From an uncultured Algibacter sp. (GTDB lineage Bacteria; Bacteroidota; Bacteroidia; Flavobacteriales; Flavobacteriaceae), in NCBI RefSeq assembly GCF_947490405.1, contig NZ_CANLGU010000003.1, positions 124,001 to 188,000 on the forward strand: a stretch of 64,000 bases of DNA, given 5' to 3'. Below the pieces are notes generated by a model. It made no database searches. It saw only the letters and a program-made list of their open reading frames with translations, and was not told the origin of the DNA. Below are positions 10,452-52,129 of the stretch, in pieces. Position numbers and translations under genes: made by a program. Within the stretch, counting starts at the first letter, position 1. Each line of letters starts with the position of its first letter.

Positions 10452-10473
10452 AACATCTTAATAATACAAATAT

Positions 10474-10499: not shown

Positions 10500-10508
10500 A
10501 ATTTTTAG

Positions 10509-11980: not shown

Positions 11981-11988
11981 AAATGAAA

Positions 11989-12017: not shown

Positions 12018-12075
12018 TTTTGACTAACGCTATCATTTTACATTTTTATAAATCAAAAATATAAAAACAACTTTT

Positions 12076-30633: not shown

Positions 30634-31869
30634 TTAATTGATAAATTTAGGTTTGATGATTAACATTGCCCATGCCCAGTTTTGGGTACTTTTTACTCCT
30701 GGCAAATCTGAAATTTCACTTGGTTCAAAGAAATGAGAATAACCTCCTACTAACTTAAACTCTTTAAATTTCTTAGCAATTACTAAATCTATCTCAGAAC
30801 CTAAATCTTTACCATCAAAACCATCAACATCTTCTACTTCAGTAAAGTAATGTCCTGTTAGAGTAACTGCTAAACCAGAAATTTTAGTAGCAAGAGATAC
30901 TTGTAAATCATTTAAACCACCTGCATTTCCATGATTCCCAACATAAAATCTATCGATTAAACCATTAAAAGCGTGGTTTGTACCGTATAATGGGAAGAAT
31001 GCTGCAGAATCATCTTTTCTACCAGAAATACTTTCGTAACCAGCTCCTAAAGTTAATTTATCAGAAACTTTATACTTTGCTAAAATACTTGCTAAAAGTG
31101 CTCCTTTTACATCAACACCTCCTACTCGTTCTCCTTCTTGAAGGTATAAGTTTGCAGCTAATGATAATGCACCAGTTTTATAATCTGCATGCGCACCTGC
31201 TGTAAGTAAACTAGATTTATTAGAACCATCTACAGCAGAATCTTGGAATGTATTTAATAAAGCCAAGAAAGAAATATTGAATTTTTCTCCTTTGTTATTT
31301 ACTCTGGCAAACACCATATCTCTATAAGAAAATAATGCCGAAGTATTATAAACTTCATCTAAAGTTGTATTTAAAGCACCACCAATATCTAAGCTTAGTT
31401 TATTTTTCTTGTACATGTAAACTGCTGCATCATGCGTTCTTGCTTGTTGTGCCCATCCTAGTCCTCCTAGAATTCTTTGGTCATCATAAGATAATGGCTG
31501 ACGCCCTAATTTTAAACTAGAAAATTCTCCAAGTTTCAAATCGGCCCAAGCTTCTTGAACTCTAAAGTTTCCATTACCTGCTGTAGAGATTTGAGGTCTG
31601 TCCCCAAAAGCAAATACTTCTTGAAAACTCGTATATACTGAATAGGTTTCAGCTTTATACTTAGCAATTATAGCTGCTCTTACTGTAGTTCTTATAAAGC
31701 CTTCATCAGCATCTGTAGCAGTTTGTGCTGGAAAAGATCCTCCTGTAAAATTACCTCCGTTTCCAAAATATTCCGAACGTGGTCTAAATTCTCCTTCTAG
31801 TGTAAACTGCGCTTGTGCAAATTGAATCATCAAAGCCATCAAGCCTATTAATGCATATTGTTTTTTCAT
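30634..31869 (-). CDS. Outer-membrane porin of the alginate-export family, linked to nitrate uptake
   Basis: A 411-residue outer-membrane beta-barrel. The start is at MKKQYALIGLMALMIQFAQAQ, which gives a normal signal peptide; the longer frame runs through the promoter. The mature protein starts FTLEGEFRPRSEYF and has alternating strands to the end, with GRQPLSYDDQRILGGLGWAQQ (about residues 120-140), typical of the alginate_exp (PF13372) family. It follows the nitrate ABC transporter genes and has its own promoter with an FNR-like box. A role in passing nitrate or nitrite across the outer membrane is inferred only from this context. Confidence 0.85.
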   Translation of the reverse strand: MKKQYALIGLMALMIQFAQAQFTLEGEFRPRSEYFGNGGNFTGGSFPAQTATDADEGFIRTTVRAAIIAKYKAETYSVYTSFQEVFAFGDRPQISTAGNGNFRVQEAWADLKLGEFSSLKLGRQPLSYDDQRILGGLGWAQQARTHDAAVYMYKKNKLSLDIGGALNTTLDEVYNTSALFSYRDMVFARVNNKGEKFNISFLALLNTFQDSAVDGSNKSSLLTAGAHADYKTGALSLAANLYLQEGERVGGVDVKGALLASILAKYKVSDKLTLGAGYESISGRKDDSAAFFPLYGTNHAFNGLIDRFYVGNHGNAGGLNDLQVSLATKISGLAVTLTGHYFTEVEDVDGFDGKDLGSEIDLVIAKKFKEFKLVGGYSHFFEPSEISDLPGVKSTQNWAWAMLIIKPKFIN

Positions 31870-31942
31870 TGTTCTTTGTTTTAAGTTTGAATTTTTATTC
31901 GATTTTATTGAGTTTGTAATCATTTTTAATTCTATTTTGATG

Positions 31943-31985
31943 CAAATATATGGGTGCAAAAACCCCAGGATTATGATATTTCTCA
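31943..31985 (-). promoter_or_regulatory. Porin promoter: -7 TATATTTG with degenerate FNR-like box upstream
   Basis: The minus-strand -7 element is at 31943-31950. A box TGAT-ATTT-CTCA (one change from TGAT-N4-ATCA) is centred at 31979.5, 36.5 bases upstream of the last base of the -7 element. This is the same geometry as at nrfH and nearly that at moeA. Confidence 0.55.
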
Positions 31986-32027
31986 TGTTTCATAACCTAT
32001 AAAAAATAAATATGTCTTTTTTTAAAA

Positions 32028-32855
32028 TTAGTGCTCTAAGAAGTCTATTAAGTGTTTTCTGTATTTATAATAATCGTCGTGTTCCAAAACGGCTTTACGG
32101 GTTCTAGGTCTTTCAAAATCTATATCTAGAACATCGCCAATTTTAGCACGAGGTCCGCTAGTCATCATCACAACACGATCTGCTAAAAATATCGCTTCAT
32201 CCACATCGTGAGTAATCATTACAGCTGTAATTTTTTCTTTATTCCAGATATCAATTAAGGTATCTTGCAATTCGCCTCGCGTTAGGGAATCTAACATTCC
32301 AAAAGGCTCATCCAGTAATAACACTTTTGGCTTTATCGCAAATGCACGAGCAATACCCACACGTTGTTGCATTCCTTGCGATAAGTCTGAAGCTCGCTTA
32401 TTAAACGCATCCTCTAAGCCTACCTTCTGTAAATAATATTTAGCAATATCGTTACGTTGGTTTTTGGTAGCATGAGGAAATACTTGGTTTACACCCAACA
32501 TTACATTCTGTAAAGCTGTCATCCAAGGCATCAAGCTCGGTGCCTGAAAAATAACACCTCTGTCTGGTCCTGGTCCTTTAATATGCTTTCCTAATACCGA
32601 AATGTTTCCTCCAGAAATCGGATTCAGTCCTGCAATCATAGACAACATAGTCGTTTTACCACATCCAGAATGGCCAATAATGGTAACAAACTCTTCTTTT
32701 TTAATTTGAAGGTTTAAATGTTCTAATACCACATAATCCCCTTTTGGTGTTGGATATACTTTTTTTAAGTCTTTTAAATCTAGCATCACATCTCTAGAAG
32801 GAAACCCAGAAGTATCAGTAATAATATTTGCTTTATTTTCAATTATTGTACTCAT
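32028..32855 (-). CDS. nrtD: Nitrate ABC transporter ATP-binding protein (NrtD-like)
   Basis: One of two ATPases that would drive nitrate import through NrtB. The ATG at 32855 (MSTIIENKANII) is chosen, 7 bases after the stop of the preceding gene; the longer frame overlaps that gene. The 275-residue protein has Walker A GHSGCGKT, a Q-loop FQAPSLMPWMT, a signature LSQGMQQRV in which Gln replaces the usual Gly, and Walker B VLLLDEP. TTC/CmpD-type features include ERPRTRKAVLEHDDYYKYR near the end. Confidence 0.9.
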   Translation of the reverse strand: MSTIIENKANIITDTSGFPSRDVMLDLKDLKKVYPTPKGDYVVLEHLNLQIKKEEFVTIIGHSGCGKTTMLSMIAGLNPISGGNISVLGKHIKGPGPDRGVIFQAPSLMPWMTALQNVMLGVNQVFPHATKNQRNDIAKYYLQKVGLEDAFNKRASDLSQGMQQRVGIARAFAIKPKVLLLDEPFGMLDSLTRGELQDTLIDIWNKEKITAVMITHDVDEAIFLADRVVMMTSGPRAKIGDVLDIDFERPRTRKAVLEHDDYYKYRKHLIDFLEH

Positions 32856-32862
32856 GATATGC

Positions 32863-33711
32863 TTATCTAAATTGGTTAACAAAATCTTTTGGTGCTAAAT
32901 CTGGAAGCACAAACTCTTCAGAAACTTGAGATTTACGCTCCTCCCCAATATCCATTAAATACTCAATAATAGCATTTCTGGTTTTTTTATAATTTGGGTT
33001 ATCGTTCATTTCTGTCTTATCGCGTGGGCGCTCAATATCAATCTTAAATTCAGGCCCTAGAGTCGCATTTGGACCTGGGCGTAACGGTATAATACGGTCT
33101 GCCATATAAATCCCTTCATCTACATCGTTAGTAATCAATAATGCTGTGCGCTTATCCTTTCCCCAAATATTTAAAATCTGATCTTGAAGCGTTCCTCTAG
33201 TTAAAGCGTCTAACGCCCCTAAAGGTTCATCCATAATAATCATATCAGGTTTCATAGATAATGCTCTGGCCACCGCCACACGTTGGCGCATCCCACCCGA
33301 TAATTCTTTAGGCAATTTATTAATAGCAGGAGTTAAACCAACCATATCAATGTAGTACGCTGCTTTTCGTTTATAAACCGCTTTTTCACGTTTCGGGAAA
33401 GCCTCTTTCACAGCCATTAATACATTTTGCTCAACCGTTAACCAAGGCAATAACGAGTAATTCTGAAAAATCACACCACGCTCATGGCTCGTACCCTCAA
33501 CAGGTTTCCCCTTAAACAACACCTCGCCTTTGGTAGGCTCAAGCAATCCGTTTATCAAATTTACCAACGTGGTTTTTCCACTTCCAGTAAACCCTACGAT
33601 TGCCACAAACTCGCCTTCCTCTATCGACAAATTAATATTAGATAGCACCTCGGTTGCGTTCTCATCTGTTCCGTAGGTTTTGTAAATATTTTTTAATTCT
33701 AAGTATGCCAT
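32863..33711 (-). CDS. nrtC: Nitrate ABC transporter ATP-binding protein (NrtC-like, no solute-binding extension)
   Basis: A 282-residue ABC ATPase with Walker A GFTGSGKT (about residues 40-47), FQNYSLLPWLTVEQNV, signature LSGGMRQRVAVARAL and Walker B MIIMDEP. The C-terminal part (FKIDIERPRDKTEMNDNPNYKKTRNAI) is typical of nitrate/taurine-type ATPases. Unlike cyanobacterial NrtC it lacks the extra C-terminal NrtA-like regulatory domain. It likely forms a heterodimer with the next ATPase. A 10-bp hairpin separates it from nrtB. Confidence 0.9.
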   Translation of the reverse strand: MAYLELKNIYKTYGTDENATEVLSNINLSIEEGEFVAIVGFTGSGKTTLVNLINGLLEPTKGEVLFKGKPVEGTSHERGVIFQNYSLLPWLTVEQNVLMAVKEAFPKREKAVYKRKAAYYIDMVGLTPAINKLPKELSGGMRQRVAVARALSMKPDMIIMDEPLGALDALTRGTLQDQILNIWGKDKRTALLITNDVDEGIYMADRIIPLRPGPNATLGPEFKIDIERPRDKTEMNDNPNYKKTRNAIIEYLMDIGEERKSQVSEEFVLPDLAPKDFVNQFR

Positions 33712-33785: not shown

Positions 33786-34892
33786 TTATATCGCATCTGT
33801 TTTCTCAAAAGACACCGCATTTTGTATAGATAACATTAGGCGATCTAACAAGAAACCAATGATACCAATAACAAACATGGCAACTATAATTTTGGCGTTA
33901 GAGTCGTTTGCACCATTTTGGAATTCCTCCCAAACAAACAATCCTAAACCAGGACTCTGCGCCAAAAGCTCAATAGCAATTAATACCATCCACGCTACAG
34001 ATAAAGTAATTTTTAAACCCGTAAATATTAATGGTAAAGACGATGGTAACACCACTTTAAACACCTTTTGAAAATTTCCTAATTTTAAAACCTTAGCAAC
34101 GTTTATATAATCTTTATCTACCGATGAAACACCCATAGACGTGTTTACCAATGTGGCCCACATAGAACATAAACCAACTGCTATAAACGAAATACTAAAT
34201 GAGCTATCCTCACTAGAATCAATCAATAAAGTTTTTACAATCATAAACACTAACAAGTACCAAACTACAGGCGATACAGGCTTAAAAATCTGGATAAACC
34301 AGTTAAACGCACTTTTTAAAGTTGGACTCAATCCTATAAAAATTCCAAGAGGCACAGCAATAAGTAATGCTAAAAAGAACCCCGCAAATACTGTTTTTAA
34401 ACTTCTAAAGATTTGATCAACGAATGAAGGACGACCTGTATAAACAATTGGATCTTTACCTTCAGCAACTCGTTTTTCATTTAAGGTTGCTGTTTTTTCT
34501 TTAAAAGCAGCTTTATCAGCGCTAATTAAAGCGTGGTCGTTCAACAAAGATTGAAACGAAGCCCAAACCTGAGAAGGCGATGGCAATGTATTTGGCTGGC
34601 AGCTAATATCGCCACTAGCAATACACGCAGCCATTTCATCTGCCGCAACTTGTCCTTGTTCATTTAATGCTTTTTCTATTCTAAATTCAGCTTCAACATT
34701 ATAAAGCGACTTTGCGCCTAAATGCCATAATCCTAAAAATAATAGAACAGAAGCAACAGGTACAATTACTTTACGCAAAAAAGCTTTATAATCTTCCTTT
34801 TCTAGCTTCCCCGTGAATAGATCTTTAAATGTACTTAAAAAGCCTAATCCCATAAATTTGGTTACTTTTCCTAATGTTACACTTTGCTTCAT
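33786..34892 (-). CDS. nrtB: Nitrate ABC transporter permease
   Basis: The inner-membrane channel of the nitrate importer. The 368-residue protein has a first helix at about residues 42-60, then about 100 extracytoplasmic residues that include two cysteines (C90, C98), and then the normal permease domain of five helices (about 163-355). The EAA coupling loop NVAKVLKLGNFQKVFKVVLP is present. The inserted outer segment makes it longer than the 270-290 residues of many NrtB proteins. It stands between nrtA and the ATPase genes, separated from nrtA by a REP-like hairpin. Confidence 0.9.
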   Translation of the reverse strand: MKQSVTLGKVTKFMGLGFLSTFKDLFTGKLEKEDYKAFLRKVIVPVASVLLFLGLWHLGAKSLYNVEAEFRIEKALNEQGQVAADEMAACIASGDISCQPNTLPSPSQVWASFQSLLNDHALISADKAAFKEKTATLNEKRVAEGKDPIVYTGRPSFVDQIFRSLKTVFAGFFLALLIAVPLGIFIGLSPTLKSAFNWFIQIFKPVSPVVWYLLVFMIVKTLLIDSSEDSSFSISFIAVGLCSMWATLVNTSMGVSSVDKDYINVAKVLKLGNFQKVFKVVLPSSLPLIFTGLKITLSVAWMVLIAIELLAQSPGLGLFVWEEFQNGANDSNAKIIVAMFVIGIIGFLLDRLMLSIQNAVSFEKTDAI

Positions 34893-34967: not shown

Positions 34968-36359
34968 TTACTGTAAAGCTTTGTCCTTATTACCAATTTT
35001 AAAACTGTTTATGTATGCAATAGGATCTTTGGCATCATAAGTTGTTCCATCAATAAAGTCGGCAGTAGCTGGTTTGTATCCATCTGTTGTTGGAATATCA
35101 CTAGCAGGAATATTGCCTTCTTCTACTAAAAGTTTAGCAGCTTTAGTCCAGATATCTGGTCTGTAAATATCCTTTATTGTAGATGCGTACCAATCTGCAG
35201 GTTTAGCTTCAGGAATTTGTCCCCAACGTCTCATTTGCGTTAAAAACCATATACCATCAGAGTAGAATGGATATGTTGCATTGTACTTGTAGAATACGTT
35301 AAAATCTGGCATCTCACGCTTATCACCTTTTTCAAATTCAAACGTACCTGTCATAGAGTTTGCTAATACAGCCTCATCAGCACCTACGTATTGACTCATA
35401 GATAATATTTTTACAGCCTCTGCTCTGTTTCCTGGTTCGTCTAACCATTTACCTGCTCTAATTAATGCTTTAGTTACAGCAATGGCAGTGTTAGGATTTT
35501 CGTCAACAAATTTCTTTGTCATTACAAATACTTTTTCTGGATTATTTTTCCAAATATCATAGTTGGTAGTAACTGGGACACCTATTCCTTTAAATACGGC
35601 TTGCTGATTCCATGGCTCTCCTACACAGTAGCCGTAAATAGTACCAGCTTCAAGCGTTGCAGGCATTTGCGGCGGAGGCGTAACAGATAATAAAACTTCT
35701 GCATCAATTTGTCCTTGTACGTTATCAGCAGTATACATACCTGGGTGAATACCTGCTGCTGCTAACCAATATCTTATTTCGTAGTTGTGTGTAGACACAG
35801 GAAATACCATACCCATTTTAAACGCCTTACCAGAGTTTTTATACTCATTGATAACAGGCTTTAAAGCCTCAGCTTTTATTGGGTGAATTGGCTTACCATC
35901 AGCACCTTTAGGTACATTTGGCTTCATTTTACTCCAAACATCGTTAGATACTGTAATACCATTACCATTTAAATCCATAGAGAATGGCGTTACTAATTCT
36001 GCCTGACGACCAAAACCTGCACCTGCTGCAATTGGCTGACCTGCTAGCATATGAGAACCATCTAATTGACCATCAATAACACGGTCTAATACGTTTTTCC
36101 AGTTAGATTGTGCTTCGACAGAAACAAATAAGCCTTCATCTTCAAAGAATCCTTTTTCTTTAGCAATGGCTAAAGGTGCCATATCTGTTAGTTTAATAAA
36201 CCCAAATGTTAATTGAGGCTTTTCAATTTCTAATGTTTTTGTTGTACTTGCTGGAGTAGCTTCAGCTACAACAGTTTCTTTTTTCTTTTCGCCACCACAA
36301 GCAAATAGTAGAACTGCTACGGGTAAAATCCAAGATGTGCGTTTTAATAGAGATTTCAT
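34968..36359 (-). CDS. nrtA: Nitrate-binding lipoprotein of the ABC transporter
   Basis: The substrate-binding component of the nitrate/nitrite importer, of the NrtA/CmpA type (463 residues). A lipobox (VLLFACGG, Cys21) anchors it to the membrane. The mature protein shows the NrtA family blocks [28 protein letters not shown] (about 50-77), [34 protein letters not shown], and [14 protein letters not shown]. It is the first gene of nrtA-nrtB-nrtC-nrtD. Its promoter carries the 16-bp palindrome TAAGTA-N4-TACTTA shared with the globin operon. Bicarbonate (CmpA-like) is a less likely substrate, given the nitrogen genes around it. Confidence 0.93.
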
Positions 36360-36379: not shown

Positions 36380-36395
36380 TAAGTATAAATACTTA
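36380..36395. promoter_or_regulatory. Palindromic operator TAAGTATAAATACTTA at nrtA
   Basis: Six-base arms with a 4-base spacer, typical of Crp/Fnr sites. It is identical to 40465-40480 and nearly identical to 41398-41413. It lies just downstream of the -7 element, 20 bases before the nrtA start, a position that suits repression. Confidence 0.75.
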
Positions 36396-36866: not shown

Positions 36867-37577
36867 TTATTCCACACCTATGGTTTTTAACCATTCTTCT
36901 TGTGATAGTGCGATATACTTTTTATCGGTACCATACGGATCTTCACCTCCATCAAAATAAGCTTGGATGATATGCATAGGAATAGTATCGCTCATTTTTT
37001 CAGGTACATCATACTTGTGATTACCATGAAAATCATGACACTGTATACAAGTAAACCATTGTTCTTTAGCTATGAGAGCTTCGTGAGAGATATCTAAAGG
37101 GTCGTTTTCTACAGTTAAATCTTGGTGGCAATTCATACAATAGTTTATGCTTTCCACAGAAACACGCTCTTCTTTATGCTCCGTATGGCAGGTAATACAT
37201 GTAGTTGCATCAATATGTTTAATAGCATCTTTAAAGCGAGGCTCAGAGAATCGATACGTTGGGTGCCTATCGTTGGGGCGATCGTGACACTGTAAACAAT
37301 TATCTACCGTAACGTCTTGTGTGCCAAATTCTACACCTTCTTCTCTTGCTCCAAAAGTATGTGAGATATTTGATTGCAATTGTTGTATTAAATTGCCTTT
37401 AGCGTCTGCATGACATGCAAAACAGTTTAAAGGTTCATGCCCCACGTTCATTGGACCTATAGATACATAATCTTCAGTTGCGTCAAGTGTAAAAATATAA
37501 AACAAAGACACTCCAAGTATTACCCCAATAATACCACCTATAACTTGTCTTTTTCGTAACGGACTTACCTTAAACAT
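36867..37577 (-). CDS. Membrane-anchored pentaheme c-type cytochrome
   Basis: A 236-residue protein with an N-terminal membrane anchor (about residues 10-30) and five CxxCH heme sites: CFACH at 52-56, CLQCH at 94-98, CITCH at 127-131, CMNCH at 147-151 and CIQCH at 177-181. It also has extra histidines for bis-His ligation. The heme part faces the periplasm. The layout recalls cytochrome c3/NapC-NrfB-like electron carriers, but no substrate site is evident. It is the last gene of the five-gene operon and 9 bases after the flavin reductase gene. It probably receives electrons from the bis-heme membrane protein; the final acceptor is unknown. Confidence 0.88.
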   Translation of the reverse strand: MFKVSPLRKRQVIGGIIGVILGVSLFYIFTLDATEDYVSIGPMNVGHEPLNCFACHADAKGNLIQQLQSNISHTFGAREEGVEFGTQDVTVDNCLQCHDRPNDRHPTYRFSEPRFKDAIKHIDATTCITCHTEHKEERVSVESINYCMNCHQDLTVENDPLDISHEALIAKEQWFTCIQCHDFHGNHKYDVPEKMSDTIPMHIIQAYFDGGEDPYGTDKKYIALSQEEWLKTIGVE

Positions 37578-37586
37578 ATCTTAATA

Positions 37587-38615
37587 TTATATTTCTATGA
37601 CTACTTTTTCGCTTAAAGGATAAGTTACACAGGTAAGTATACCACCATTTTGAACTTCATCTTCAGGTAATATGTGTCCTTCAGTCATTTGAACTTCACC
37701 TTCTAAACACTTGCCTTTACAAGTAGAACACATACCAGACCTGCATGAATAAGGAATTATTATGTTTTGAGACATAGCTTGGTTTAGTATAGATTTATCA
37801 CCTCTTACTTTAAAATTATATTCCTCTCCATTATGCTTTAATGTTACATCACTCAATAAGTTTTTACCTGTTACTTTTACGGTTGGACTTTTAAAAACTT
37901 CTATCTTTATTTTATCTCTGGTAATACCATTATCGGCTAAAACTTCCTTTATTTTTTCCATGTAACCAAAAGGCCCACATATCATATACACATGATTATC
38001 ATAAACCAAACCGTGCTTTAGCATGATTTGATCTATTAAGGTTTTTGTAGCTAATCCTGAATGATAATTCTCTTGAGAGCTTTTGTTTGAAGAAATAATA
38101 TGCTCTACTTTAAATACATTTGGAAATTTACTTTCCAACGTTTTTATCTCATCATGAAAAATAATAGATTCCATGGTTTGGTTGGCGTATATAAGTAATA
38201 CTTTAGAGTCTGGCTCTTCTGTTAAAACCGATTTAGCTATAGAAAACATTGGCGTCACACCACTACCACCAGCAAATAAAATATATTGATTTTTATTACT
38301 TTTTTGGGGTTCTATACAAAAGGTACCAGCTGGATCATCCACTTGAAGTTTATCTCCTATCTTTAACCTATCATGCACATAATTTGAGACTAAACCTTTT
38401 TCTACGCGTTTTACTGTTATTTTTAAATCTTTATCGGTAAAAGGGTTACTACTAAAAGAGTATGCTCGTTTTTGAACAACACCATCAATAGGTACGCTAA
38501 TGGTTAAAAATTGCCCAGGTTTATATTTAAACTTTTTAAACAAACTCCCATTTTTAAGACAAATAGTCATTGCATCCTCAGTTTCCGTTATTATATCCTT
38601 TATCAACAATTTCAT
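37587..38615 (-). CDS. NAD(P)H:FAD/2Fe-2S oxidoreductase (ferredoxin reductase-like)
   Basis: A 342-residue cytoplasmic flavoprotein with no signal peptide. An FAD-binding domain (RAYSFSSNP, residues 50-58) is followed by an NAD(P)-binding domain (LFAGGSGVTPM from 113, MICGPFGYM near 213) and a C-terminal plant-type 2Fe-2S domain with cysteines at 291, 296, 299 and 329. This is the PaaE/Hcr-type architecture. Placed 8 bases after a bis-heme membrane protein gene, it would be the electron entry point from NAD(P)H. Alternatives are an Hcr-like partner for a hybrid-cluster protein, but none is encoded here. Confidence 0.9.
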   Translation of the reverse strand: MKLLIKDIITETEDAMTICLKNGSLFKKFKYKPGQFLTISVPIDGVVQKRAYSFSSNPFTDKDLKITVKRVEKGLVSNYVHDRLKIGDKLQVDDPAGTFCIEPQKSNKNQYILFAGGSGVTPMFSIAKSVLTEEPDSKVLLIYANQTMESIIFHDEIKTLESKFPNVFKVEHIISSNKSSQENYHSGLATKTLIDQIMLKHGLVYDNHVYMICGPFGYMEKIKEVLADNGITRDKIKIEVFKSPTVKVTGKNLLSDVTLKHNGEEYNFKVRGDKSILNQAMSQNIIIPYSCRSGMCSTCKGKCLEGEVQMTEGHILPEDEVQNGGILTCVTYPLSEKVVIEI

Positions 38616-38623
38616 AAATCTTT

Positions 38624-39106
38624 TTATTTATAATAAAACACCATAGTAATATGGAATACCATCATAATTGTAACAACTAAGGATAATGCTACATGTGTAA
38701 TCATCCATCCTTTAAATAGAGCATCGCTATTATTCTTTAATACATCCAAATTAAAATATCCCAGAAGTGTATTTGAAAAAAAGATATATGATAATAACAA
38801 TAAATACCCAAAACCCATACCCATACTATGTATATAAAAAAACAGTGGACTTAATGCACCTAACCATTTATGTATATTTTGCATACCCATAGCACGTGAC
38901 TTCCACTTTTTAACAGTTCTGGTTAAGGATAACAGCCATTGAAAACCAATAAATAATGCCAAAAATAATCCAGACCAACGTTTGTACATTTCCTGTTGCT
39001 GCAATTGAAATAGCCAAGTCCACTCCAGTTTTAAACTGTATTGAACAAAAAAAGCAAAAAGCAAGACCAAGCCTACAATGGTGGATTTATTATTATTTAA
39101 AACCAT
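38624..39106 (-). CDS. Bis-heme ferric-reductase-like membrane protein
   Basis: A 160-residue membrane protein with about five helices. From the ATG at 39106, two helices each carry a pair of histidines with the spacing H-x13-H: His79/His93 and His138/His152. This is the pattern that holds two b hemes in NADPH oxidases and ferric reductases. A GTG start at 39175, 9 bases after the preceding stop, would add 23 mostly hydrophobic residues and cannot be excluded. It lies between the heme lipoprotein and reductase genes, and would carry electrons from the cytoplasmic reductase to periplasmic hemes. It lacks the flavin domain, which is encoded separately next door. Confidence 0.75.
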   Translation of the reverse strand: MVLNNNKSTIVGLVLLFAFFVQYSLKLEWTWLFQLQQQEMYKRWSGLFLALFIGFQWLLSLTRTVKKWKSRAMGMQNIHKWLGALSPLFFYIHSMGMGFGYLLLLSYIFFSNTLLGYFNLDVLKNNSDALFKGWMITHVALSLVVTIMMVFHITMVFYYK

Positions 39107-39184
39107 GAAAAAGGATAAATTAAAAGTTATTGCAACCTGCCCAAAAACAATGGGCAAGATTGCAATACTCAACACTAAACAAAA

Positions 39185-40000
39185 TTATTTTGCCGACGCT
39201 ACTAAATGCTTCATAGTCTCGTAAGATGACAATTTGCGCACACTATCTAAAAAGACTTCTGGTGTTGGTAAATAGTTACCCTCTGCCGGCCATTTATCTC
39301 CTATCTCTGGTTTTTTACTTTTTTCAAAAGCTTTAATTTCATCTAAATATTCCATGTAGATATCTACAGTACCTTTTGCATAAGAATTCAATACAGCTAC
39401 GGTTTCTTTATAAGTTAGAGAATCTTTTGGATACTGCCATGTTGTAGCCCCCATAACATCTCCCAATTTCCAATCGGATTTAGAAGTTTGTGGATGATCA
39501 TTATGACACGTTACACAAGCGCCAGCACTAGCTAAATCTGCAAACATAGCTGTATGCAACTTTTGTTCCTCATCATAGAAAAATTTAGGCTCCTGATTCT
39601 TTTTTATTTCTGTAAATAATTCTGCTTGTTGCCCTTGAAATTTATTGGCTGCATTTATAGGATAGTCAGAACCTAAATACAAGCCAAGTGGTACAGGTCC
39701 TTTTCTAATGCTTGTAGCAACACCTCTAAGAAATAATGCTGGTAGAGGTCCTGCTTCTACATCATCCTTTCTCCAATCTTCATCAAACTTCATTCCTTGT
39801 TTTTTCCCTTTACCTACAATTGCTTTCGTGTATAATGTTCTGGTAACATCATTTTCTTTTGCTACCATTTCTAAAACTTCTTCTACAGCAAAGGCCTTTT
39901 CTTCACTAGCATCAGCAGTTTTTTCTTCTGGAACACCACCACAAGAATTTAAAATAAATATAAGAGCTAAAGCTGATAATTGTTTCATAATAGATTTCAT
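39185..40000 (-). CDS. Tll0287-like (DUF3365) monoheme lipoprotein
   Basis: A 271-residue protein with a lipobox (FILNSC, Cys20) and one c-type heme site CVTCH (162-166) followed by NDHP. The segment ending at the heme (PINAANKFQGQQAELFTEIKK ... FFYDEEQKLHTAMFADLASAGACVTCHNDHP) matches the Tll0287-like family, PAS-like heme domains that also occur as sensor regions. Here it is a free lipoprotein in the periplasm. It could act as a small-gas or redox sensor or an electron carrier. It follows the globin gene by 19 bases. The function is unproven. Confidence 0.85.
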   Translation of the reverse strand: MKSIMKQLSALALIFILNSCGGVPEEKTADASEEKAFAVEEVLEMVAKENDVTRTLYTKAIVGKGKKQGMKFDEDWRKDDVEAGPLPALFLRGVATSIRKGPVPLGLYLGSDYPINAANKFQGQQAELFTEIKKNQEPKFFYDEEQKLHTAMFADLASAGACVTCHNDHPQTSKSDWKLGDVMGATTWQYPKDSLTYKETVAVLNSYAKGTVDIYMEYLDEIKAFEKSKKPEIGDKWPAEGNYLPTPEVFLDSVRKLSSYETMKHLVASAK

Positions 40001-40019
40001 AATTAGAGTTTTTAATTAA

Positions 40020-40433
40020 TTAGTATGCTGCTTCAATCATTACGTTAGACATTACACCGTAAACATCTGCCCAAGCTGTTTTTACTTCTGGTGTAAATTC
40101 ATCGCCTAATCCAGCCTCAAGCGTTCCCAATAAAGCAGCACCAACTGTATCATAATGAGAAGCTTCAACATTATAGTCTACATGGCGCTTTGCTAAACCT
40201 TTTAAAACTGGCACCAAAGCATCTAGATTACTTAGTCCTGCAACTGCAGCTGCTAGCATTGTCATTAACTTATTACCCTGAGATTTCATGGCATCGTCAC
40301 TACTTGGAAATAAAGGCTTAAGTTTTGGATCTAACTCAAACAGTTTAGCATAAAATATCTCTGCAGCTTGTGGTGCAATAGGTTTTACTTTTTCAAAAGA
40401 TTCTTGAACTAATGTTACTGTTTTTGCTTCCAT
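40020..40433 (-). CDS. Single-domain globin (flavohemoglobin-type, probable NO dioxygenase)
   Basis: A 137-residue globin. The start is at MEAKTVTLVQESF; the longer frame covers promoter DNA. It has the proximal histidine in LAKRHVDYNVEASHY (His84), the distal-pocket Tyr28 (IFYAKLF, position B10), Phe42 after the C helix and Gln52 at E7. These are the features of flavohemoglobin-like globins that oxidise NO to nitrate. It has no reductase domain. The flavin reductase encoded in the same operon could serve it. It is the first gene of the operon and is preceded by the TAAGTA-N4-TACTTA palindrome. Confidence 0.9.
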   Translation of the reverse strand: MEAKTVTLVQESFEKVKPIAPQAAEIFYAKLFELDPKLKPLFPSSDDAMKSQGNKLMTMLAAAVAGLSNLDALVPVLKGLAKRHVDYNVEASHYDTVGAALLGTLEAGLGDEFTPEVKTAWADVYGVMSNVMIEAAY

Positions 40434-40464: not shown

Positions 40465-40480
40465 TAAGTATAAATACTTA
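40465..40480. promoter_or_regulatory. Palindromic operator TAAGTATAAATACTTA at the globin operon
   Basis: Identical over all 16 bases to the site at nrtA and placed the same way, 7 bases downstream of the -7 element and 31 bases before the globin ATG. Confidence 0.75.
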
Positions 40481-40622: not shown

Positions 40623-41357
40623 TTAACTATCTAAGAAATAGTTATGATCGCTAATTTCTTTTTTAAGTGCAAGTGCATCATTAATACCTATCTTTTTGCC
40701 TTGGGCAGTGATAAGTTTTTCCTTCTTTAATGCTGAAAATACACGAATAACTTGTTCTTCTGTCGTGCCAGCATAATCAGCATATTCTCTTCGACTTAAT
40801 GGTAAATTTAGGAAGCTATTTAAATTTCCAAATTTTCTGTGTATGTACAATAAGGAGTCAATAACACGCTCTCTCACCGTCATTTGTGAAATAGACTTTA
40901 CTTTATTTTCACTTCGGTTGAGTTCATTGGCGTAAAACAACATCATATCGAACGCAAACTTGGGATTATTCAATAGCGCTTCTTGCAGGTTTTCCTTAGA
41001 AAAATAGCATAATATGGTATCTTTTAGCGCCACTGCACCTATGGAATAGTACTCCTCGGTACCAAACCCGCGATGACCAATAATTTCGCCCTCTTTGGCA
41101 AAACGCACTATTTGCTCGCGCCCATTAATGCCTGTTCTAAACACCTTTACGGTTCCTTTTAGTATAAAAAAGAGTCCGTTTACTGGTGCGCCTTCCATAA
41201 TAAACTGCTGCCCTTTTTTACAACGCAACGTGCTTTTGTTGTCTACTAACGTGGAATTTTCGAGAATGGAAAGGTTTCTATTTACTATACAATTTGAGTT
41301 ATCGCATGACGCACACGAGGTATCTTTTAAGGAGCGAAATTTTGTATGTGTGGACAT
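40623..41357 (-). CDS. Crp/Fnr-family regulator with FNR-type cysteines
   Basis: A 244-residue activator/repressor. The start is at MSTHTKFRSLKD. Cys15, Cys18 and Cys23 near the N-terminus and Cys117 in DTILCYFSKEN lie where FNR binds its oxygen-labile 4Fe-4S cluster, although the third spacing is one residue shorter than in E. coli FNR. A cyclic-nucleotide-type beta barrel (about 45-125), a dimer helix and a winged helix (LPLSRREYADYAGTTEEQVIRVFSAL, about 180-205) follow. The recognition helix keeps Glu and Arg (E-Q-V-I-R) but has Ile where FNR has Ser. It stands between the globin operon and ccsBA. A TAAGTA-N4-TACTTA palindrome at its own promoter suggests autoregulation. Confidence 0.9.
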   Translation of the reverse strand: MSTHTKFRSLKDTSCASCDNSNCIVNRNLSILENSTLVDNKSTLRCKKGQQFIMEGAPVNGLFFILKGTVKVFRTGINGREQIVRFAKEGEIIGHRGFGTEEYYSIGAVALKDTILCYFSKENLQEALLNNPKFAFDMMLFYANELNRSENKVKSISQMTVRERVIDSLLYIHRKFGNLNSFLNLPLSRREYADYAGTTEEQVIRVFSALKKEKLITAQGKKIGINDALALKKEISDHNYFLDS

Positions 41358-41391
41358 GGCGACTGCGGGCATGTTGTTCAGGTTTACACTT

Positions 41392-41399
41392 CAAAATTA
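41392..41399 (-). promoter_or_regulatory. -7 promoter element (TAATTTTG) for the fnr-like gene
   Basis: A minus-strand TAnnTTTG match 35 bases before the start; it overlaps the near arm of the palindrome at 41398-41413. Confidence 0.5.
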
Positions 41400-41413
41400 A
41401 GTAATAATACTTA
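41398..41413. promoter_or_regulatory. Palindromic operator TAAGTAATAATACTTA at the fnr-like gene
   Basis: The same six-base arms and 4-base spacer as the sites at nrtA and the globin operon, with a different spacer. It touches the -7 element, so binding should repress the gene. Confidence 0.7.
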
Positions 41414-47224: not shown

Positions 47225-48403
47225 ATGATTTCTATTACCGAAGCTATTTCTACAGTTAAAACTAACGTAAAACCATTATTACAATCTACTACAAAAAAGG
47301 TTGAAAAAGCTGGTGGCTATCTTTTATTTAGTGATGTGCATTCACCTATTAATATGCCTCCATTTAGGCAGTCGGCTATGGATGGTTACGCTTTAAACTT
47401 ACATGAAGACTTATCATATACATTAATTGGTGAAATAAAAGCTGGCGATGGCGATACATTTGTTTTAAAAAAAGGAGAGGCTGTTAGAATTTTTACGGGT
47501 GCACCTGTTCCTGATACTGCAAATGCAATTATGATGCAGGAGAAAGTTATCGTAAATAACAATAAAATTACCATAGCGCACCAAATAAAATTAGCGCTTA
47601 ACATCAGGCCTTTGGGCGAACAGGTAAAGTCTGGTGATATAGCTTTAAAAAAAGGCACAAAACTAACGCCAGCTGCTATTGGGTATCTTATATCTTTAGG
47701 TATTACTGAAGTATCAGTTTTTAAAAAACCTAATATAGCCATTGTAACTACAGGTAACGAATTGGTTGAGGCTGGTAAAGATTTAACCTATGGAAAAATC
47801 TACGAAAGCAACTCAAAAATGCTTTTGAGCGCACTTTATAATTTGAAGTATTATGATGTGACGCTTTATAAAGTTGAAGATGATTATAACAAAACCGTAA
47901 ATACTTTAAACACAGCAATTAATGCTAACGATTTAGTGATGATTACCGGCGGTATTTCAGTTGGTGATTATGATTTTGTTGGAAAAGCACTCAAAGAATT
48001 ACAAGTTTCAGAGCTATTTTATAAAGTGAAGCAAAAACCCGGAAAGCCGTTATTTTATGGCAAAAAAGAGGACACACAAATATTTGCCCTTCCAGGAAAT
48101 CCTGCTGCTGCTCTATCTTGTTTTTATGTATATGTGTATATCGCTTTGCAACAACTAATGAATCGTAATGTAACTGAATTACCAAGAGTAAAAGCCAAAA
48201 CCTTAAATAGTTTTCATAAGAAAGGCGACAGACCTCAATTTTTAAAAGGCATATACAAAGATGGTCAAGTTGAAGTTTTAGATGGACAAAACTCATCAAT
48301 GTTACAAACCTTCGCACTTTCCAACGCTTTAGTTTACGTACCAGAACATGTTACAAAAATTGAAAAGGGGGATTTTACTGAAGTGATACAATTACCTGTT
48401 TAA
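47225..48403 (+). CDS. moeA: Molybdopterin molybdenumtransferase
   Basis: Inserts molybdate into adenylylated molybdopterin, the last step of Mo-cofactor synthesis. The 392-residue protein has QSAMDGYAL near residue 49, RIFTGAPVPDTANAIMMQE near 91, VTTGNEL, the MoCF-binding GGISVGDYDFV near 242-252 and ALPGNPAAALSCF near 290. It is the first gene of the molybdopterin cluster and divergent from nrfHA. Both sides carry an FNR-like box. Confidence 0.95.
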   Translation: MISITEAISTVKTNVKPLLQSTTKKVEKAGGYLLFSDVHSPINMPPFRQSAMDGYALNLHEDLSYTLIGEIKAGDGDTFVLKKGEAVRIFTGAPVPDTANAIMMQEKVIVNNNKITIAHQIKLALNIRPLGEQVKSGDIALKKGTKLTPAAIGYLISLGITEVSVFKKPNIAIVTTGNELVEAGKDLTYGKIYESNSKMLLSALYNLKYYDVTLYKVEDDYNKTVNTLNTAINANDLVMITGGISVGDYDFVGKALKELQVSELFYKVKQKPGKPLFYGKKEDTQIFALPGNPAAALSCFYVYVYIALQQLMNRNVTELPRVKAKTLNSFHKKGDRPQFLKGIYKDGQVEVLDGQNSSMLQTFALSNALVYVPEHVTKIEKGDFTEVIQLPV

Positions 48404-48412
48404 AAGATTACT

Positions 48413-48751
48413 ATGGGATACAAAATAAAAAGTAGAATTTGGATTGAATCTGACGAAAACGTACTGCTTGGAGAAGGCCGCGTGCATTTATTAAAGGCCA
48501 TTCAAGAAACAGGTTCCCTTTCTAAGGCTGCAAAATCATTACATATTTCTTATAAGAAAGCGTGGCAGTTATTAGACTCTGTAAACAAATCGGCTAAAAA
48601 ACCTGTCACTATAAATAGTATTGGAGGGAAAGGTGGCGGTGGCGCAGAACTAACTGAATATGGGAAATCTTTAGTTAAGGCTTTTGATGAAATCAATAGA
48701 AATTGTTGGAAGTTTTTGGATAAGGAATTAGCTAGAATTGAAAAACTATAA
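48413..48751 (+). CDS. ModE-type winged-helix protein lacking the molybdate-binding domain
   Basis: A 112-residue protein consisting only of the ModE/LysR-like helix-turn-helix domain. LLGEGRVHLLKAIQETGSLSKAAKSLHISYKKAWQLLDSVN spans about residues 18-58 and GGKGGGGAELTEYGKSLV (74-91) is typical of ModE N-domains. The C-terminal TOBE/molbindin part that senses molybdate is absent, so it either senses nothing itself or uses a partner. It lies 9 bases after moeA and may regulate the molybdopterin or nitrate genes. Confidence 0.88.
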   Translation: MGYKIKSRIWIESDENVLLGEGRVHLLKAIQETGSLSKAAKSLHISYKKAWQLLDSVNKSAKKPVTINSIGGKGGGGAELTEYGKSLVKAFDEINRNCWKFLDKELARIEKL

Positions 48752-48767
48752 TTAAAATATTAAACGC

Positions 48768-48842
48768 TTGTCATTTCGAACACAGTGAGAAATCTCACTA
48801 GAATAATGAGATGTCTCAATCGTACCTCATTTCGACATGACA
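48768..48842. repeat. Dispersed repeat C, copy 1 (TTGTCATTTCGA...ACATGACAA)
   Basis: A 75-bp element with inverted ends TTGTCAT/ATGACAA. It shares ATGTCTCAATCG and CCTCATTTCGACATGACAA with 50415-50504. It fills the gap between the ModE-like and TauE-like genes. Confidence 0.75.
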
Positions 48843-48864
48843 AAGACTGAATAAATTAACACAA

Positions 48865-49605
48865 GTGCTGCAAACAGAAAACATATACCTATTTCTCATC
48901 ATACTACCCATAGTATCATTTCTCTATTCAAGTGTCGGACATGGTGGGGCGAGTGGCTATTTAGCATTAATGGCGTTGTTTTCTTTTGCTCCAGAAACTA
49001 TGAAACCTACGGCGTTATTGCTTAATATTTTTGTTGCTGGTATTTCGTTCTACTACTATTTTAAAGCAGGGCATTTTAACAAGAAACTATTTATCTCATT
49101 TGCCATAACTTCTATTCCTTTGGCTTATTTAGGAGGTACCATTGAAGTTGACGCCTCAATTTATAAAAAGATTTTAGCACTTTTATTAATCTTCGCTATT
49201 CTTAAAATGTTAAATGTATTTGGAAAAGAAAGTGATAACATAAAGCAAGTTAAACTATGGCAAGGTTTAATTATTGGTGCCATCATTGGTTTCTTTTCAG
49301 GGCTTATTGGTATTGGTGGCGGTATCATTTTAACACCAGTAATCCTTTTACTTCATTGGGGTAAAATGAAAGAAGCGGCTGCGGTTTCTGCATTATTTAT
49401 TTGGGTGAATTCAGCAGCAGCTTTAATAGGACAGTTTAGTATTGGTGTATCAATAGAGAAAGCCTCTTTCGTGCTGGTGGTTATCGCGCTAATTGGTGGC
49501 ATTTTAGGAGGTTACTATGGTAGTAAAAAAATCAACAATCTGCATTTAAGGTATATATTAGCCTTTGTGTTAATTATAGCATGTGCAAAATTATTTTTCA
49601 CCTAA
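48865..49605 (+). CDS. TauE/SafE-family anion transporter
   Basis: A 246-residue membrane protein with about eight helices and the two half-repeats of the TauE/SafE family (SSVGHGGASGYLAL near residues 22-35 and GLIGIGGGIILTPVILLL near 141-158). Members export sulfite or other sulfonate/oxyanion products. Translation starts at GTG; the next Met is 35 residues in and would cut the first motif. Its stop codon runs straight into the mobA start (TAAATG). In this molybdopterin setting it could move molybdate, sulfate or nitrite, which is an open guess. Confidence 0.85.
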   Translation: MLQTENIYLFLIILPIVSFLYSSVGHGGASGYLALMALFSFAPETMKPTALLLNIFVAGISFYYYFKAGHFNKKLFISFAITSIPLAYLGGTIEVDASIYKKILALLLIFAILKMLNVFGKESDNIKQVKLWQGLIIGAIIGFFSGLIGIGGGIILTPVILLLHWGKMKEAAAVSALFIWVNSAAALIGQFSIGVSIEKASFVLVVIALIGGILGGYYGSKKINNLHLRYILAFVLIIACAKLFFT

Positions 49606-50190
49606 ATGATAGATAAAAAGAACATAATAGGTATTATTTTGGCTGGTGGTAAAAGCTCTAGAATGGGTTCTGATAAAGGTTTTTTACAGTTGAATAATAA
49701 GCCTTTTATACAATATAGCATTGAAGCTTTGAAGCCTTTGGTTTCAGAAATTTTAATTGTTTCAGATGATGCTAAATACGACACTTTTGGATTAAAACGC
49801 ATTACTGATTTTACTAAAAATGCTGGTCCTGTTGGAGGTATTTATTCAGGGTTGGAAGCTTCAAAAAGCGAATTGAATTTGATTTTAAGTTGCGATATTC
49901 CTTTAATTACTTCAGACGTTTTACAAAAGCTTATTGACGCGGTTGATGATGCATCAGATATTATTCAAGCTGAAAGTAATGGTAAAACCATGCCGCTCAT
50001 TGCGCTTTATAAAAGGGCTGTAAAAGGCCAATTTAAACGGTTTTTGGAGCAAGATGAACGCCGGTTACGAGTGGTTGTAAAAGGTTGTCGTTACAACACT
50101 ATTGTTTTAGATGAAGCCTTTCAAAATGCAACATTAAACGTGAATACAAAAGAAGAATTAAAACAAATTGAAGATGCTTATAACGATTAA
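49606..50190 (+). CDS. mobA: Molybdenum cofactor guanylyltransferase
   Basis: Attaches GMP to Mo-molybdopterin to form the guanine dinucleotide cofactor used by DMSO-reductase-family enzymes such as Nap or Nas nitrate reductases. The 194-residue protein has the nucleotide-binding GIILAGGKSSRMGSDKG (9-25), NAGPVGGIYSGLEA near 73-86 and the metal-binding LSCDIPLI near 96. It directly follows the TauE-like gene and overlaps moaD by 17 bases. Its presence predicts a bis-MGD enzyme elsewhere in the genome. Confidence 0.94.
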   Translation: MIDKKNIIGIILAGGKSSRMGSDKGFLQLNNKPFIQYSIEALKPLVSEILIVSDDAKYDTFGLKRITDFTKNAGPVGGIYSGLEASKSELNLILSCDIPLITSDVLQKLIDAVDDASDIIQAESNGKTMPLIALYKRAVKGQFKRFLEQDERRLRVVVKGCRYNTIVLDEAFQNATLNVNTKEELKQIEDAYND

Positions 50191-50407
50191 ATATTTTGGT
50201 CAAATAGCAGAAGTGACTCAAAAAGAAGAGGAAGAATTAGAAGTTAATGAAAATTTGGTTTCAGGACTTTTAAATACTTTATGTACGAAGTATTCAGATT
50301 TAGAAAACAAAGATTTTCAAATAGCGCAGAATCAAGAGTTAGTGGATTTAGACACAGAATTAACAGGAGCAGAAATCGCTTTATTGCCACCATTTGCGGG
50401 AGGTTAA
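50174..50407 (+). CDS. moaD: Molybdopterin synthase sulfur-carrier subunit
   Basis: A 77-residue ubiquitin-fold protein ending in the required Gly-Gly (LLPPFAGG), whose C-terminus is thiocarboxylated by MoeB and then gives sulfur to precursor Z. The ATG at 50174 was chosen over the TTG two codons upstream. It overlaps mobA by 17 bases, and its partner moaE lies two genes downstream. Confidence 0.93.
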   Translation: MLITIKYFGQIAEVTQKEEEELEVNENLVSGLLNTLCTKYSDLENKDFQIAQNQELVDLDTELTGAEIALLPPFAGG

Positions 50408-50414
50408 TAGAACG

Positions 50415-50504
50415 TGTCATTTCGACCGAAAGGGAGAAATCACATAATAATTGAAATGAGACCTTTTATGAAATGTCTCAATCGTGCCTCATTTCGACAT
50501 GACA
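50415..50504. repeat. Dispersed repeat C, copy 2
   Basis: A 90-bp element with TGTCAT/ATGACA inverted ends, related to 48768-48842, in the gap between moaD and moeB. Confidence 0.75.
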
Positions 50505-50533
50505 AAATAAAAAACATAAAATTGGTAGGAAGA

Positions 50534-50557
50534 GATTCCTGCCTTCGCAGGAATGAC
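50534..50557. repeat. Hairpin repeat D covering the moeB start codon
   Basis: The stem ATTCCTGC / GCAGGAAT with the loop CTTC (50535-50554) contains the first two bases of the moeB ATG (50553-50555). It is a short dispersed hairpin like those at 51645 and 27029. Confidence 0.8.
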
Positions 50558-51677: not shown

Positions 51678-51679
51678 TT

Positions 51680-52126
51680 ATGAAAGATAAAAAACCAATG
51701 AAAAGTGTTTTCAAAGAAGGTGCTATAACTTCAGATTTTATAGGGAATTCTATTTATAAACATCAAACAAAAACAAGTATCGGTGCCCATAATATTTTTT
51801 TGGGACAAGTTCGTGCAGATGAGATTGATGGTAAAACAGTTTCCGCAATTGAATATACCGCTTATGAAGATATGGCAAATGAAAAATTCCATGAGATACG
51901 AGAATCAGCTTTTGAAAAATTTGATTTAACCTGCATGCATATTTATCATAGTCTTGGAACTGTAAAAGCAGGTGAAATATGCTTATTTGTATTTGTATCA
52001 TCACCTAGGCGAAAAGTAGTATTTGAAGCTTTAGAATATATAGTTGAAGCAATAAAAGCTGATGTTCCTGTTTTTGGAAAAGAGATTTTTGAGGACGAAA
52101 GTCATCAATGGAAAATAAATAGTTAA
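51680..52126 (+). CDS. moaE: Molybdopterin synthase catalytic subunit
   Basis: With MoaD it converts precursor Z (cPMP) to molybdopterin. The 148-residue protein has GAHNIFLGQVRADEIDGKTV near residues 34-53, the IYHSLGTVKAGE block near 94-105 and the catalytic lysines in AIKADVPVFGKEIFEDESHQW near 122-142. It starts 2 bases after moeB and lies 3 bases before moaCB. Confidence 0.94.
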   Translation: MKDKKPMKSVFKEGAITSDFIGNSIYKHQTKTSIGAHNIFLGQVRADEIDGKTVSAIEYTAYEDMANEKFHEIRESAFEKFDLTCMHIYHSLGTVKAGEICLFVFVSSPRRKVVFEALEYIVEAIKADVPVFGKEIFEDESHQWKINS

Positions 52127-52129
52127 GAG

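Follow-up and report, generated by a model that had tools for sequence, protein, structure and literature searches.

Where do electrons go when a cytoplasmic reductase that would take them from NAD(P)H is encoded together with a small membrane protein, two c-type heme proteins and a globin, next to a nitrate transporter? The question is raised by a locus of an uncultured Algibacter sp., located in a stretch of 64,000 nucleotides that was analysed as a whole (the window; Table 1). The original prediction described five tightly packed minus-strand genes, and all five ORFs proved to be real and intact at the positions listed. The intergenic gaps measure 8-19 bases, with 78 bases ahead of the ATG of mem, for which an alternative GTG start at 39175 is possible. 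The predicted motifs are present as well, namely five CXXCH in c5, two exactly 13-spaced histidine pairs in mem (H79/H93 and H138/H152) and the Pfam domains FAD_binding_6, NAD_binding_1 and Fer2 in red. The window also contains nrfHA near the operon, its NrfH-like ORF being named by inspection.

Table 1. Features of the locus, with position in the window, strand and basis of the assignment.
glb, single-domain flavohemoglobin-type globin	40020..40433	-	PF00042 2.2e-20
tll, Tll0287-like (heme-Cache) monoheme lipoprotein	39185..40000	-	PF11845 match; lipoprotein nature read from sequence
mem, membrane protein with two H-x13-H pairs	38624..39106	-	four invariant His; AlphaFold2 model
red, cytoplasmic FAD/NAD(P)/2Fe-2S reductase, PaaE/Hcr architecture	37587..38615	-	Pfam domains
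c5, membrane-anchored pentaheme cytochrome c	36867..37577	-	five CXXCH
FNR-like Crp-family regulator (crp)	40623..41372	-	cNMP_binding + HTH_Crp_2
NrtA-type substrate-binding protein, neighbouring ABC transporter	34968..36359	-	NMT1_2 2.6e-97
NrtB-type permease	33786..34892	-	TIGR01183 138.8 bits, under its cut-off 209.05
First ATP-binding subunit, NrtAB transporter	32863..33711	-	adjoins nrtAB, conserved with nrtAB; named by inspection
Second ATP-binding subunit, nitrate type	32028..32882	-	TIGR01184 ntrCD 316.3 bits, above cut-off 291.8
Palindrome TAAGTA-N4-TACTTA, operon head	40465..40480	.	pattern search, upstream-region count
Palindrome TAAGTA-N4-TACTTA before nrtA	36380..36395	.	pattern search, upstream-region count
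Palindrome TAAGTA-N4-TACTTA before FNR-like gene	41398..41413	.	pattern search, upstream-region count

The expected recurrence of the five-gene order in other genomes was borne out by all 20 loci on genome contigs, by 29 of the 30 family genomes that have mem and by Flammeovirga, where hemA lies in front of the operon. The two samples overlap, since at least G026 is identical with L009 and G028 with L025. The crp gene and nrtABCD are conserved neighbours at the 20 contig loci; in the seven loci viewed, the ORFs that follow c5 or separate it from nrtA varied. Two genomes depart from the common pattern. In G260, the single order exception, red and c5 form one polypeptide of 571 aa, with the c5 part following the reductase, and tll and mem adjoin, and a search of this genome for such a globin found none. 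The fusion, which is known from G260 only, ties the reductase to c hemes. G244 has kept crp, the globin and nrtABCD; tll, mem, red and c5 are missing in the 18 kb fetched, and neither mem nor tll was found when its genome was searched. Among the genomes tested, tll is present in 3/3 with mem and 0/32 without it. The two exceptions argue for tll, mem, red and c5 as one unit and for the globin as a separable module. The globin's predicted place in the operon is thus upheld by the conserved order, but it is not an obligate one, as G260 without globin and G244 with the globin but without the other four genes document.

These exceptions also bear on the possibility that the locus encodes a split flavohemoglobin, in which the cytoplasmic globin would be the main target of red, with the membrane protein and the c-heme proteins forming a side branch. 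The precedent is Bjgb-Flp of Bradyrhizobium japonicum, a single-domain globin and a flavoprotein proposed to reduce it, which are encoded together with an ABC nitrate transporter in an operon for nitrate assimilation and serve NO protection (PMC4724949). Gene content and the common operator described below likewise place a globin and an FNR-type reductase together in a nitrate-linked operon, and the globin (nearest PDB entry 3s1i, 1.2e-25) retains its active-site residues Y28, Q52 and H84 in 13/13 sequences. However, the description of Bjgb-Flp in PMC4724949, as far as it was available, mentions neither a membrane conduit nor c hemes, whereas the reductase studied here travels with the conduit: it is located between mem and c5 and not beside glb (20 contig loci, 29/30 family genomes), it is fused to c5 in the globin-less G260, and G244 has kept the globin with no reductase beside it. 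On these three grounds a function of red as a globin-only reductase was rejected, and the split flavohemoglobin as a whole appears unlikely.

The membrane protein is the central piece of the putative conduit. All four histidines are invariant in 48/48 aligned sequences, the window protein included (48 distinct rows, 46 distinct across the last 150 residues), so that the H-x13-H pairs are not due to chance; a lack of conservation, named beforehand as a finding that would speak against the prediction, was looked for and not encountered. Both pairs are also present in Flammeovirga, where the protein is still annotated as hypothetical. An AlphaFold2 model based on the 48 sequences (pLDDT 88.6, pTM 0.82) has five long helices; an earlier, weak model from 22 sequences had a pLDDT of 72.9 and retrieved no significant match in a fold search. 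H79 and H138 lie at the positively charged, inner side. By its histidines mem would thus be a di-heme b wire.

Homology of mem with the NOX/FRE families (PF01794), a further element of the original prediction, found no support. The window protein matches no Pfam or NCBIfam family at E 0.001, and its score against PF01794 Ferric_reduct (13.5 bits, E 0.075) is below the curated cut-off of 28 bits. With a ceiling of E 10, this profile matches 21/22 mem sequences of a first set, the best at E 7.2e-5, and 20/23 of a second, and the G260 protein reaches 15.8 bits. A PF01794 search of the own genome with E up to 1 returned a single weak place, which lies elsewhere than in the operon, and missed mem itself. 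Foldseek with the pTM 0.82 model gave no match at E <= 0.001 among PDB or viral models, which does not prove a fold different from that of NOX, STEAP or MsrQ structures, and a profile search against PDB sequences retrieved nothing. A search of 395 genomes of the phylum with mem returned G000 and five weak places. Like NOX/FRE proteins, mem carries four histidines in two helices and has a flavin/NAD(P) dehydrogenase partner; unlike them, it has five helices instead of six, the chains are separate, and a Fer2 domain and c hemes are added. The interpretation of H-x13-H as a NOX/FRE heme signature holds for the arrangement in two helices but not for the spacing, which is 13/13 in mem, 13 and 12 in NOX2 (PMC3591440) and 12 and 12 in SpNOX (PMC11031084).

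A split pair of ferric reductase domain and flavin protein is already known from MsrQ/Fre of E. coli, where a separate cytosolic flavin reductase and a membrane heme b protein deliver electrons to the periplasm as described in PMC11031084. The operon differs in that mem has all four histidines and that a pentaheme c and a heme-Cache protein are added; msrP is absent among its five genes, and an hhalign comparison of the mem profile with ten MsrQ sequences yielded no match (prob 0.1). Another likeness was found in membrane proteins of other Bacteroidota families (L078-L081), which carry two H-x13-H pairs and a last helix resembling that of mem (hhalign prob 93, E 2.9e-7, 30 columns). Their genes adjoin Fe-S and multiheme c ORFs within the about 3 kb fetched of each; in contrast to mem, the proteins have about 280 aa and a ferredoxin-type partner.

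The alignments of the encoded proteins each cover part of the loci (A2 with 19, A3 with 20, A4 with 16, A5 with 13 and A10 with 13 members). The reductase scores 253.6 bits against PaaE (TIGR02160), under the cut-off of 420.8, and so shares the PaaE architecture without being a PaaE equivalog; its Cys 291, 296, 299 and 329 are kept in 19/19. The five CXXCH of c5 are present in 20/20, together with six further invariant histidines. Its Pfam matches are of the cytochrome c3 type, with no NapC/NirT-type family among the five; the NrfH profile gave 22 bits (cut-off 134.2), PDB sequences a weak NrfH similarity (E 8.3e-4), and the search of the 395 genomes G000 and three weak places. The tll protein matches PF11845 (33.9 bits, cut-off 24.1, E 5.1e-8), and a profile search against PDB sequences gave a chance match only. 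It resembles the stand-alone form of sCache_heme proteins (DUF3365/Tll0287), which carry CXXCH in this domain (PMC12889525). The lipobox-like Cys and CXXCH are invariant in 16/16, and the mature protein has no other Cys in 16/16 or in Flammeovirga; unlike the redox-type sCache_heme with Cys/His axial ligation, tll thus offers in none of the 16 a Cys axial ligand like that known from Tll0287.

The link to nitrate is documented by a palindromic operator, TAAGTA-N4-TACTTA with at most one mismatch, for which shuffled controls remained under 1%. It was found upstream of glb in 38/44, of nrtA in 22/23 and of crp in 16/23 regions, and upstream of c5 (0/44), red (0/45), tll (0/45) and nrtB (0/21) in none. 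These counts refer to distinct sequences with near relatives counted apart, and three rows offering fewer than 80 upstream bases (crp L022, nrfA L025, nrfH L010) were left out. The six regions without operator before glb are L005, L022, L023, L061, L066 and L067. The upstream set of nirB comprises nine rows, four of which are true nirB (L018, L019, L020, L030) and five, with 26-28% identity, the NirB-like part of other ORFs; the own-genome nirB carries the operator within one mismatch, and the three other true nirB regions differ at two bases. Two of the seven rows in the nasA set, with 35% identity, are doubtful. The genome has a fifth palindrome, which sits in the beginning of another ORF and was taken as chance; a reversed control pattern occurs at two places. 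In most Flavobacteriaceae with the operon, its operator matches that of nrtABCD and of the FNR-like gene, which places the operon in the nitrate/nitrite assimilation regulon. The FNR-like protein, like a NarL-like regulator a candidate for binding the palindrome, has Cys 20, 23, 28, 51 and 122, and its C-x2-C-x4-C motif is present in 8/8 sequences examined. The Flammeovirga operon has no operator ahead and no annotated nitrate gene within 14 kb, so that the nitrate link may be lineage-specific.

This regulation is pertinent to a second explanation, an assimilatory metal (ferric) reductase that serves the iron demand of nitrate assimilation. The FRE-like architecture would suit such a role, and for some MsrQ-like clusters a function in iron assimilation has been suggested (PMC8238504), but it is crp and nrtABCD that recur next to the operon, and the operator connects it with nitrate genes, which renders a ferric reductase improbable.

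The distribution of nitrogen genes was compared in 80 genomes, 30 with and 50 without mem, seven mem-negative ones (G412, G420, G426, G433, G440, G447, G454) of an initial 87 having been left out before any result was obtained. Full-length NirB is present in 30/30 mem-positive versus 11/50 mem-negative genomes, and NrfA in 18/30 versus 5/50. The predicted co-occurrence with nrfA was thus recovered, but the association with NirB is stronger, and the operator is found before none of nrfA (0/5), nrfH (0/2) and ccs (0/7). The operon is linked to nitrate uptake and NirB more than to nrfA; given the NirB-positive genomes without it, nitrite assimilation does not depend on the operon. An electron donor to the periplasmic NrfA, suggested by the proximity of nrfHA, by nrfA in the stretches fetched for 5/20 contig loci and by its higher frequency in mem-positive genomes, is very unlikely: the NrfH-like ORF, the usual donor, is present, the operator is missing as stated, and 12/30 mem-positive genomes show no NrfA, although one of these is only 76% complete. 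NrfA as an obligate acceptor was rejected accordingly. Periplasmic superoxide production in the manner of NOX, with O2 as acceptor, has the same direction of electron flow and purified Tll0287-type proteins that make superoxide with O2 (PMC12889525) in its favor, but it is highly improbable with a regulator of the FNR type adjoining and five c hemes and a lipoprotein that O2 reduction would not need.

Nitrate had been among the acceptors originally envisaged. The own genome contains just two PF00384 molybdopterin proteins, one extended by a NirB-like NAD(P)H-reductase part and one of the FdhF/YdeP type, which makes nitrate unlikely as a periplasmic acceptor here; it was rejected as a candidate on this basis.

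The operon thus probably encodes a transmembrane electron conduit and a separable globin in the nitrate/nitrite assimilation regulon, with NAD(P)H-driven export of electrons. The predicted split route, which would lead from NAD(P)H to c hemes in the periplasm, is supported by the conserved gene order, the invariant histidines and the red-c5 fusion beside tll and mem. Within red, electrons would pass from NAD(P)H via FAD to the [2Fe-2S] cluster, from there to an inner heme b (H79/H138) and an outer heme b (H93/H152) of mem, and on to the five hemes of c5, which may hand them to the Tll0287-like lipoprotein and/or a periplasmic acceptor. Cytoplasmic reducing power would so reach the periplasm during nitrate or nitrite handling, and the globin would clear NO in the cytoplasm. 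NO or nitrite may be the likeliest periplasmic target, a tentative assignment that could well prove wrong.

Few systems known in bacteria pass electrons from NAD(P)H to the periplasm directly, without quinone. More speculatively, and doubtful at present, mem might found a yet unnamed family of di-heme b wires with five helices, which would be unrelated, or related only very remotely, to the ferric reductase domain and would connect exchangeable cytosolic reductases (of the FAD/2Fe-2S type in this operon, perhaps Fe-S ferredoxin proteins at L078-L081) with multiheme c proteins of the periplasm; in Flavobacteriaceae it would have been taken into nitrate assimilation as a periplasmic branch for NO/nitrite that is driven by NAD(P)H and bypasses the quinone pool. 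The fusion in G260 and the absence in G244 provide clean predictions on which parts work together. If the conduit reading is right, there is a testable claim for a protein annotated as hypothetical in Flammeovirga, and the operon would represent a modular NAD(P)H-to-periplasm system tied to nitrate assimilation in Bacteroidota.

Five open reading frames lie on the minus strand where the original prediction had placed an operon, and the intergenic gaps read from the sequence are small. Family scans identified a globin (glb), a Tll0287-like domain in the monoheme lipoprotein (tll), a FAD/NAD/2Fe-2S reductase (red) and a cytochrome c3-type pentaheme protein (c5), and in the same scans the membrane protein with two H-x13-H pairs (mem) matched no family. 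The scores of red for PaaE, 253.6 bits, and for the NADH oxidoreductase PRK10684, 180.8 bits, are both below cut-off. A search of genome contigs with mem retrieved 20 loci, and the predicted order glb-tll-mem-red-c5 recurs in all of them, one (L023) having its c5 cut by the contig end. The fetched stretches also contain an FNR-like Crp-family gene (crp; 19/20), nrtA (18/20) and nrfA (5/20). Within the family, 30 of 397 genomes harbor mem, 29 of them with the five-gene order, and a sample of 395 genomes of the phylum searched with mem yielded genome G000 and five weak places, but nothing more. Plasmid p1 of Flammeovirga kamogawensis (class Cytophagia) carries hemA-globin-DUF3365-hypothetical-ferredoxin reductase-cytochrome c3 in conserved order, hemA standing at the head as if for heme supply. 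This locus and the scarcity of matches indicate that the unit is rare, yet reaches another class. Searches of open-access PMC articles listed none whose title or abstract opening describes the operon.

Coordinates of the features discussed in the text
Feature	Sequence	Positions	Strand	Remark
Five-gene operon	window	36867-40433	minus
Alginate_exp-type outer-membrane protein	window	30634-31986		450 aa; PF13372 26.5 bits vs 25.2
Molybdopterin-synthesis-like genes	window	47225-54048	plus	beside nrfHA
Two overlapping globin-like ORFs	L023	6202-7127		operon head; identity with the window's globin 37% and 77%
LuxR-type response regulator	L029	12813-13478		beside nasA/nirB genes, own genome
Multiheme cytochrome	L029	13618-14895		425 aa; C554/c7-type matches; adjoins the response regulator
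PilJ-domain histidine kinase	L030	407-2239		beside nasA/nirB genes, own genome
Phosphonate-type binding protein and short Crp-like protein	L071 (G260)	6480-7397 and 9284-9868		near the fusion
crp, globin and nrtABCD	L100 (G244)	7817-13662
hemA (glutamyl-tRNA reductase)	L105 (Flammeovirga)	11170-12432

The globin is separable from the other four genes in two genomes. In G260, a single ORF of 571 aa joins FAD-, NAD- and Fer2 domains to five CXXCH motifs and also contains, as judged by eye, a hydrophobic stretch; tll, with a hydrophobic N-terminus in place of the lipobox (by eye), and mem follow, and the operon's globin profile found no match in this genome. In G244, crp, a 54% identical globin and nrtABCD occur together, tll, mem, red and c5 are all missing from the 18 kb fetched, and a genome search found neither mem nor tll. 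In a test set of 35 genomes (3 mem-positive, 32 mem-negative), the globin profile found matches in the two mem-positive genomes besides G260 and in two of the 32 mem-negative ones (in G244 the globin just named, in G293 a segment of a 447-aa ORF); tll is present in 3/3 and 0/32, respectively. Based on the fusion, the loss and this distribution, we read the operon as two modules, a four-protein conduit plus the globin.

The histidines H79, H93, H138 and H152 of mem are invariant in all 48 aligned sequences, at identities down to 38%, and the Flammeovirga homologue also holds both pairs; two H-x13-H pairs are likewise found in cytochrome b of bc complexes. The mean Lys/Arg count is 4.9 for residues 62-78 and 1.0 for residues 25-39, which by the positive-inside rule would place H79 and H138 near the cytoplasm. 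PF01794 was matched weakly by 21 of 22 mem sequences (best 7.2e-5; 20/23 in a second scan), the window's own copy remaining under the 28-bit cut-off (E 0.075, 13.5 bits). The mem profile showed no similarity to ten MsrQ sequences, and a fold search gave no significant structural match. According to PMC3591440, most short forms of the ferric reductase domain (FRD) lack the inner-heme histidines and few have all four. The AlphaFold2 model of the protein chain alone (pLDDT 88.6, pTM 0.82) has five long helices, whereas PMC11031084 gives six for FRD proteins. The predicted NOX/FRE likeness thus holds for the four histidines, but family membership is not supported: mem may work like a ferric reductase domain, yet PF01794 score, MsrQ comparison, fold search and helix number keep us from filing it as one. 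In the stretches of ~3 kb retrieved from four genomes of other Bacteroidota families (L078-L081), an Fe-S ORF and a multiheme c ORF flank a membrane protein that carries two H-x13-H pairs and whose last helix resembles that of mem. The Fe-S ORF of L078 contains 4Fe-4S domains and a cNMP remnant, and those of L079-L081 were recognized by eye.

Tyr28, Gln52 and His84 of the globin, the flavohemoglobin distal and proximal positions, are kept in 13/13 sequences. All 20 c5 sequences share five CXXCH motifs and six further invariant histidines, which would suffice for bis-His ligation of all hemes and therefore suggest a role in electron transfer rather than catalysis. Via the split conduit, electrons would be exported from NAD(P)H to the periplasm. 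The lipobox and CXXCH hold the sole cysteines of mature tll (16/16), which leaves none to act as the axial ligand known from Tll0287 and from a Pseudomonas putida protein (preprint PMC12889525); the same preprint reports redox-type behaviour of a stand-alone member and NO sensing by a signalling member. A globin-flavoprotein pair within a nitrate assimilation operon of Bradyrhizobium japonicum is described in PMC4724949.

A palindrome, TAAGTA-N4-TACTTA, is common to the upstream regions of glb, nrtA and crp. In the own genome it occurs in five places, four preceding crp, glb, nrtA and nirB and the fifth inside the start of another ORF; the reversed control pattern occurs in two. Allowing one mismatch within 150 bases upstream, this operator precedes glb in 38/44, nrtA in 22/23 and crp in 16/23 cases (base-shuffled controls, 0.1 to 0.6%), but not c5 (0/44), red (0/45), tll (0/45), nrtB (0/21), nrfA (0/5), nrfH (0/2) or ccs (0/7). 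Thus, it marks the head of a single operon and groups it with nitrate uptake, apart from nrfHA-ccs. True nirB has the operator in one of four cases, the own genome's copy, the three Maribacter-type copies differing at two bases, and nasA-like genes in 2/7, the own genome's copy having two mismatches. In G244, exact or one-mismatch operators precede crp and nrtA, and none precedes the globin. A 5-4-5 palindrome has FNR-box geometry, and the cysteines of the Crp-family protein (20, 23, 28, 51, 122) lie near the positions of those that hold the cluster in E. coli FNR. Alternative candidate regulators are the PilJ-domain kinase and the LuxR-type regulator, by arrangement a NarX/NarL-like pair.

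In the ABC transporter encoded next to the operon, one of the ATP-binding subunits scores 316.3 bits, above the ntrCD cut-off of 291.8, and the permease falls below the ntrB cut-off. In many relatives the ABC genes are followed by the Alginate_exp-type gene, whose product is possibly a nitrate porin. The own-genome NirB exceeds its family cut-off, and the adjoining large molybdopterin protein is extended by a FAD/NAD part resembling that of NirB and also has a [2Fe-2S] domain of the BFD type. From architecture and place we call it putatively NasA-type; it is under every NCBIfam cut-off (Fdh-alpha 601.4 vs 666.25, NasC 548.4 vs 1100). A second PF00384 protein exceeds the FdhF/YdeP cut-off, and a PF00384 search of the own genome revealed no third. 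The molybdopterin-synthesis-like run, its first gene MoeA-like by family scan and the remainder named by eye, adjoins crp in some relatives.

Full-length NirB (>1200 bits) is present in 30/30 mem-positive versus 11/50 mem-negative family genomes. The proposed co-occurrence with nrfA is borne out by NrfA counts (>500 bits; 18/30 versus 5/50), but not by a shared operator. Both comparisons are uncorrected for kinship, and 14 of the mem-negative genomes and one of the mem-positive ones are at most 90% complete. The operon is real and conserved, shares its operator with nitrate uptake and is anchored by a natural fusion; it would represent a new variant of the known theme of split electron export from NAD(P)H to the periplasm.
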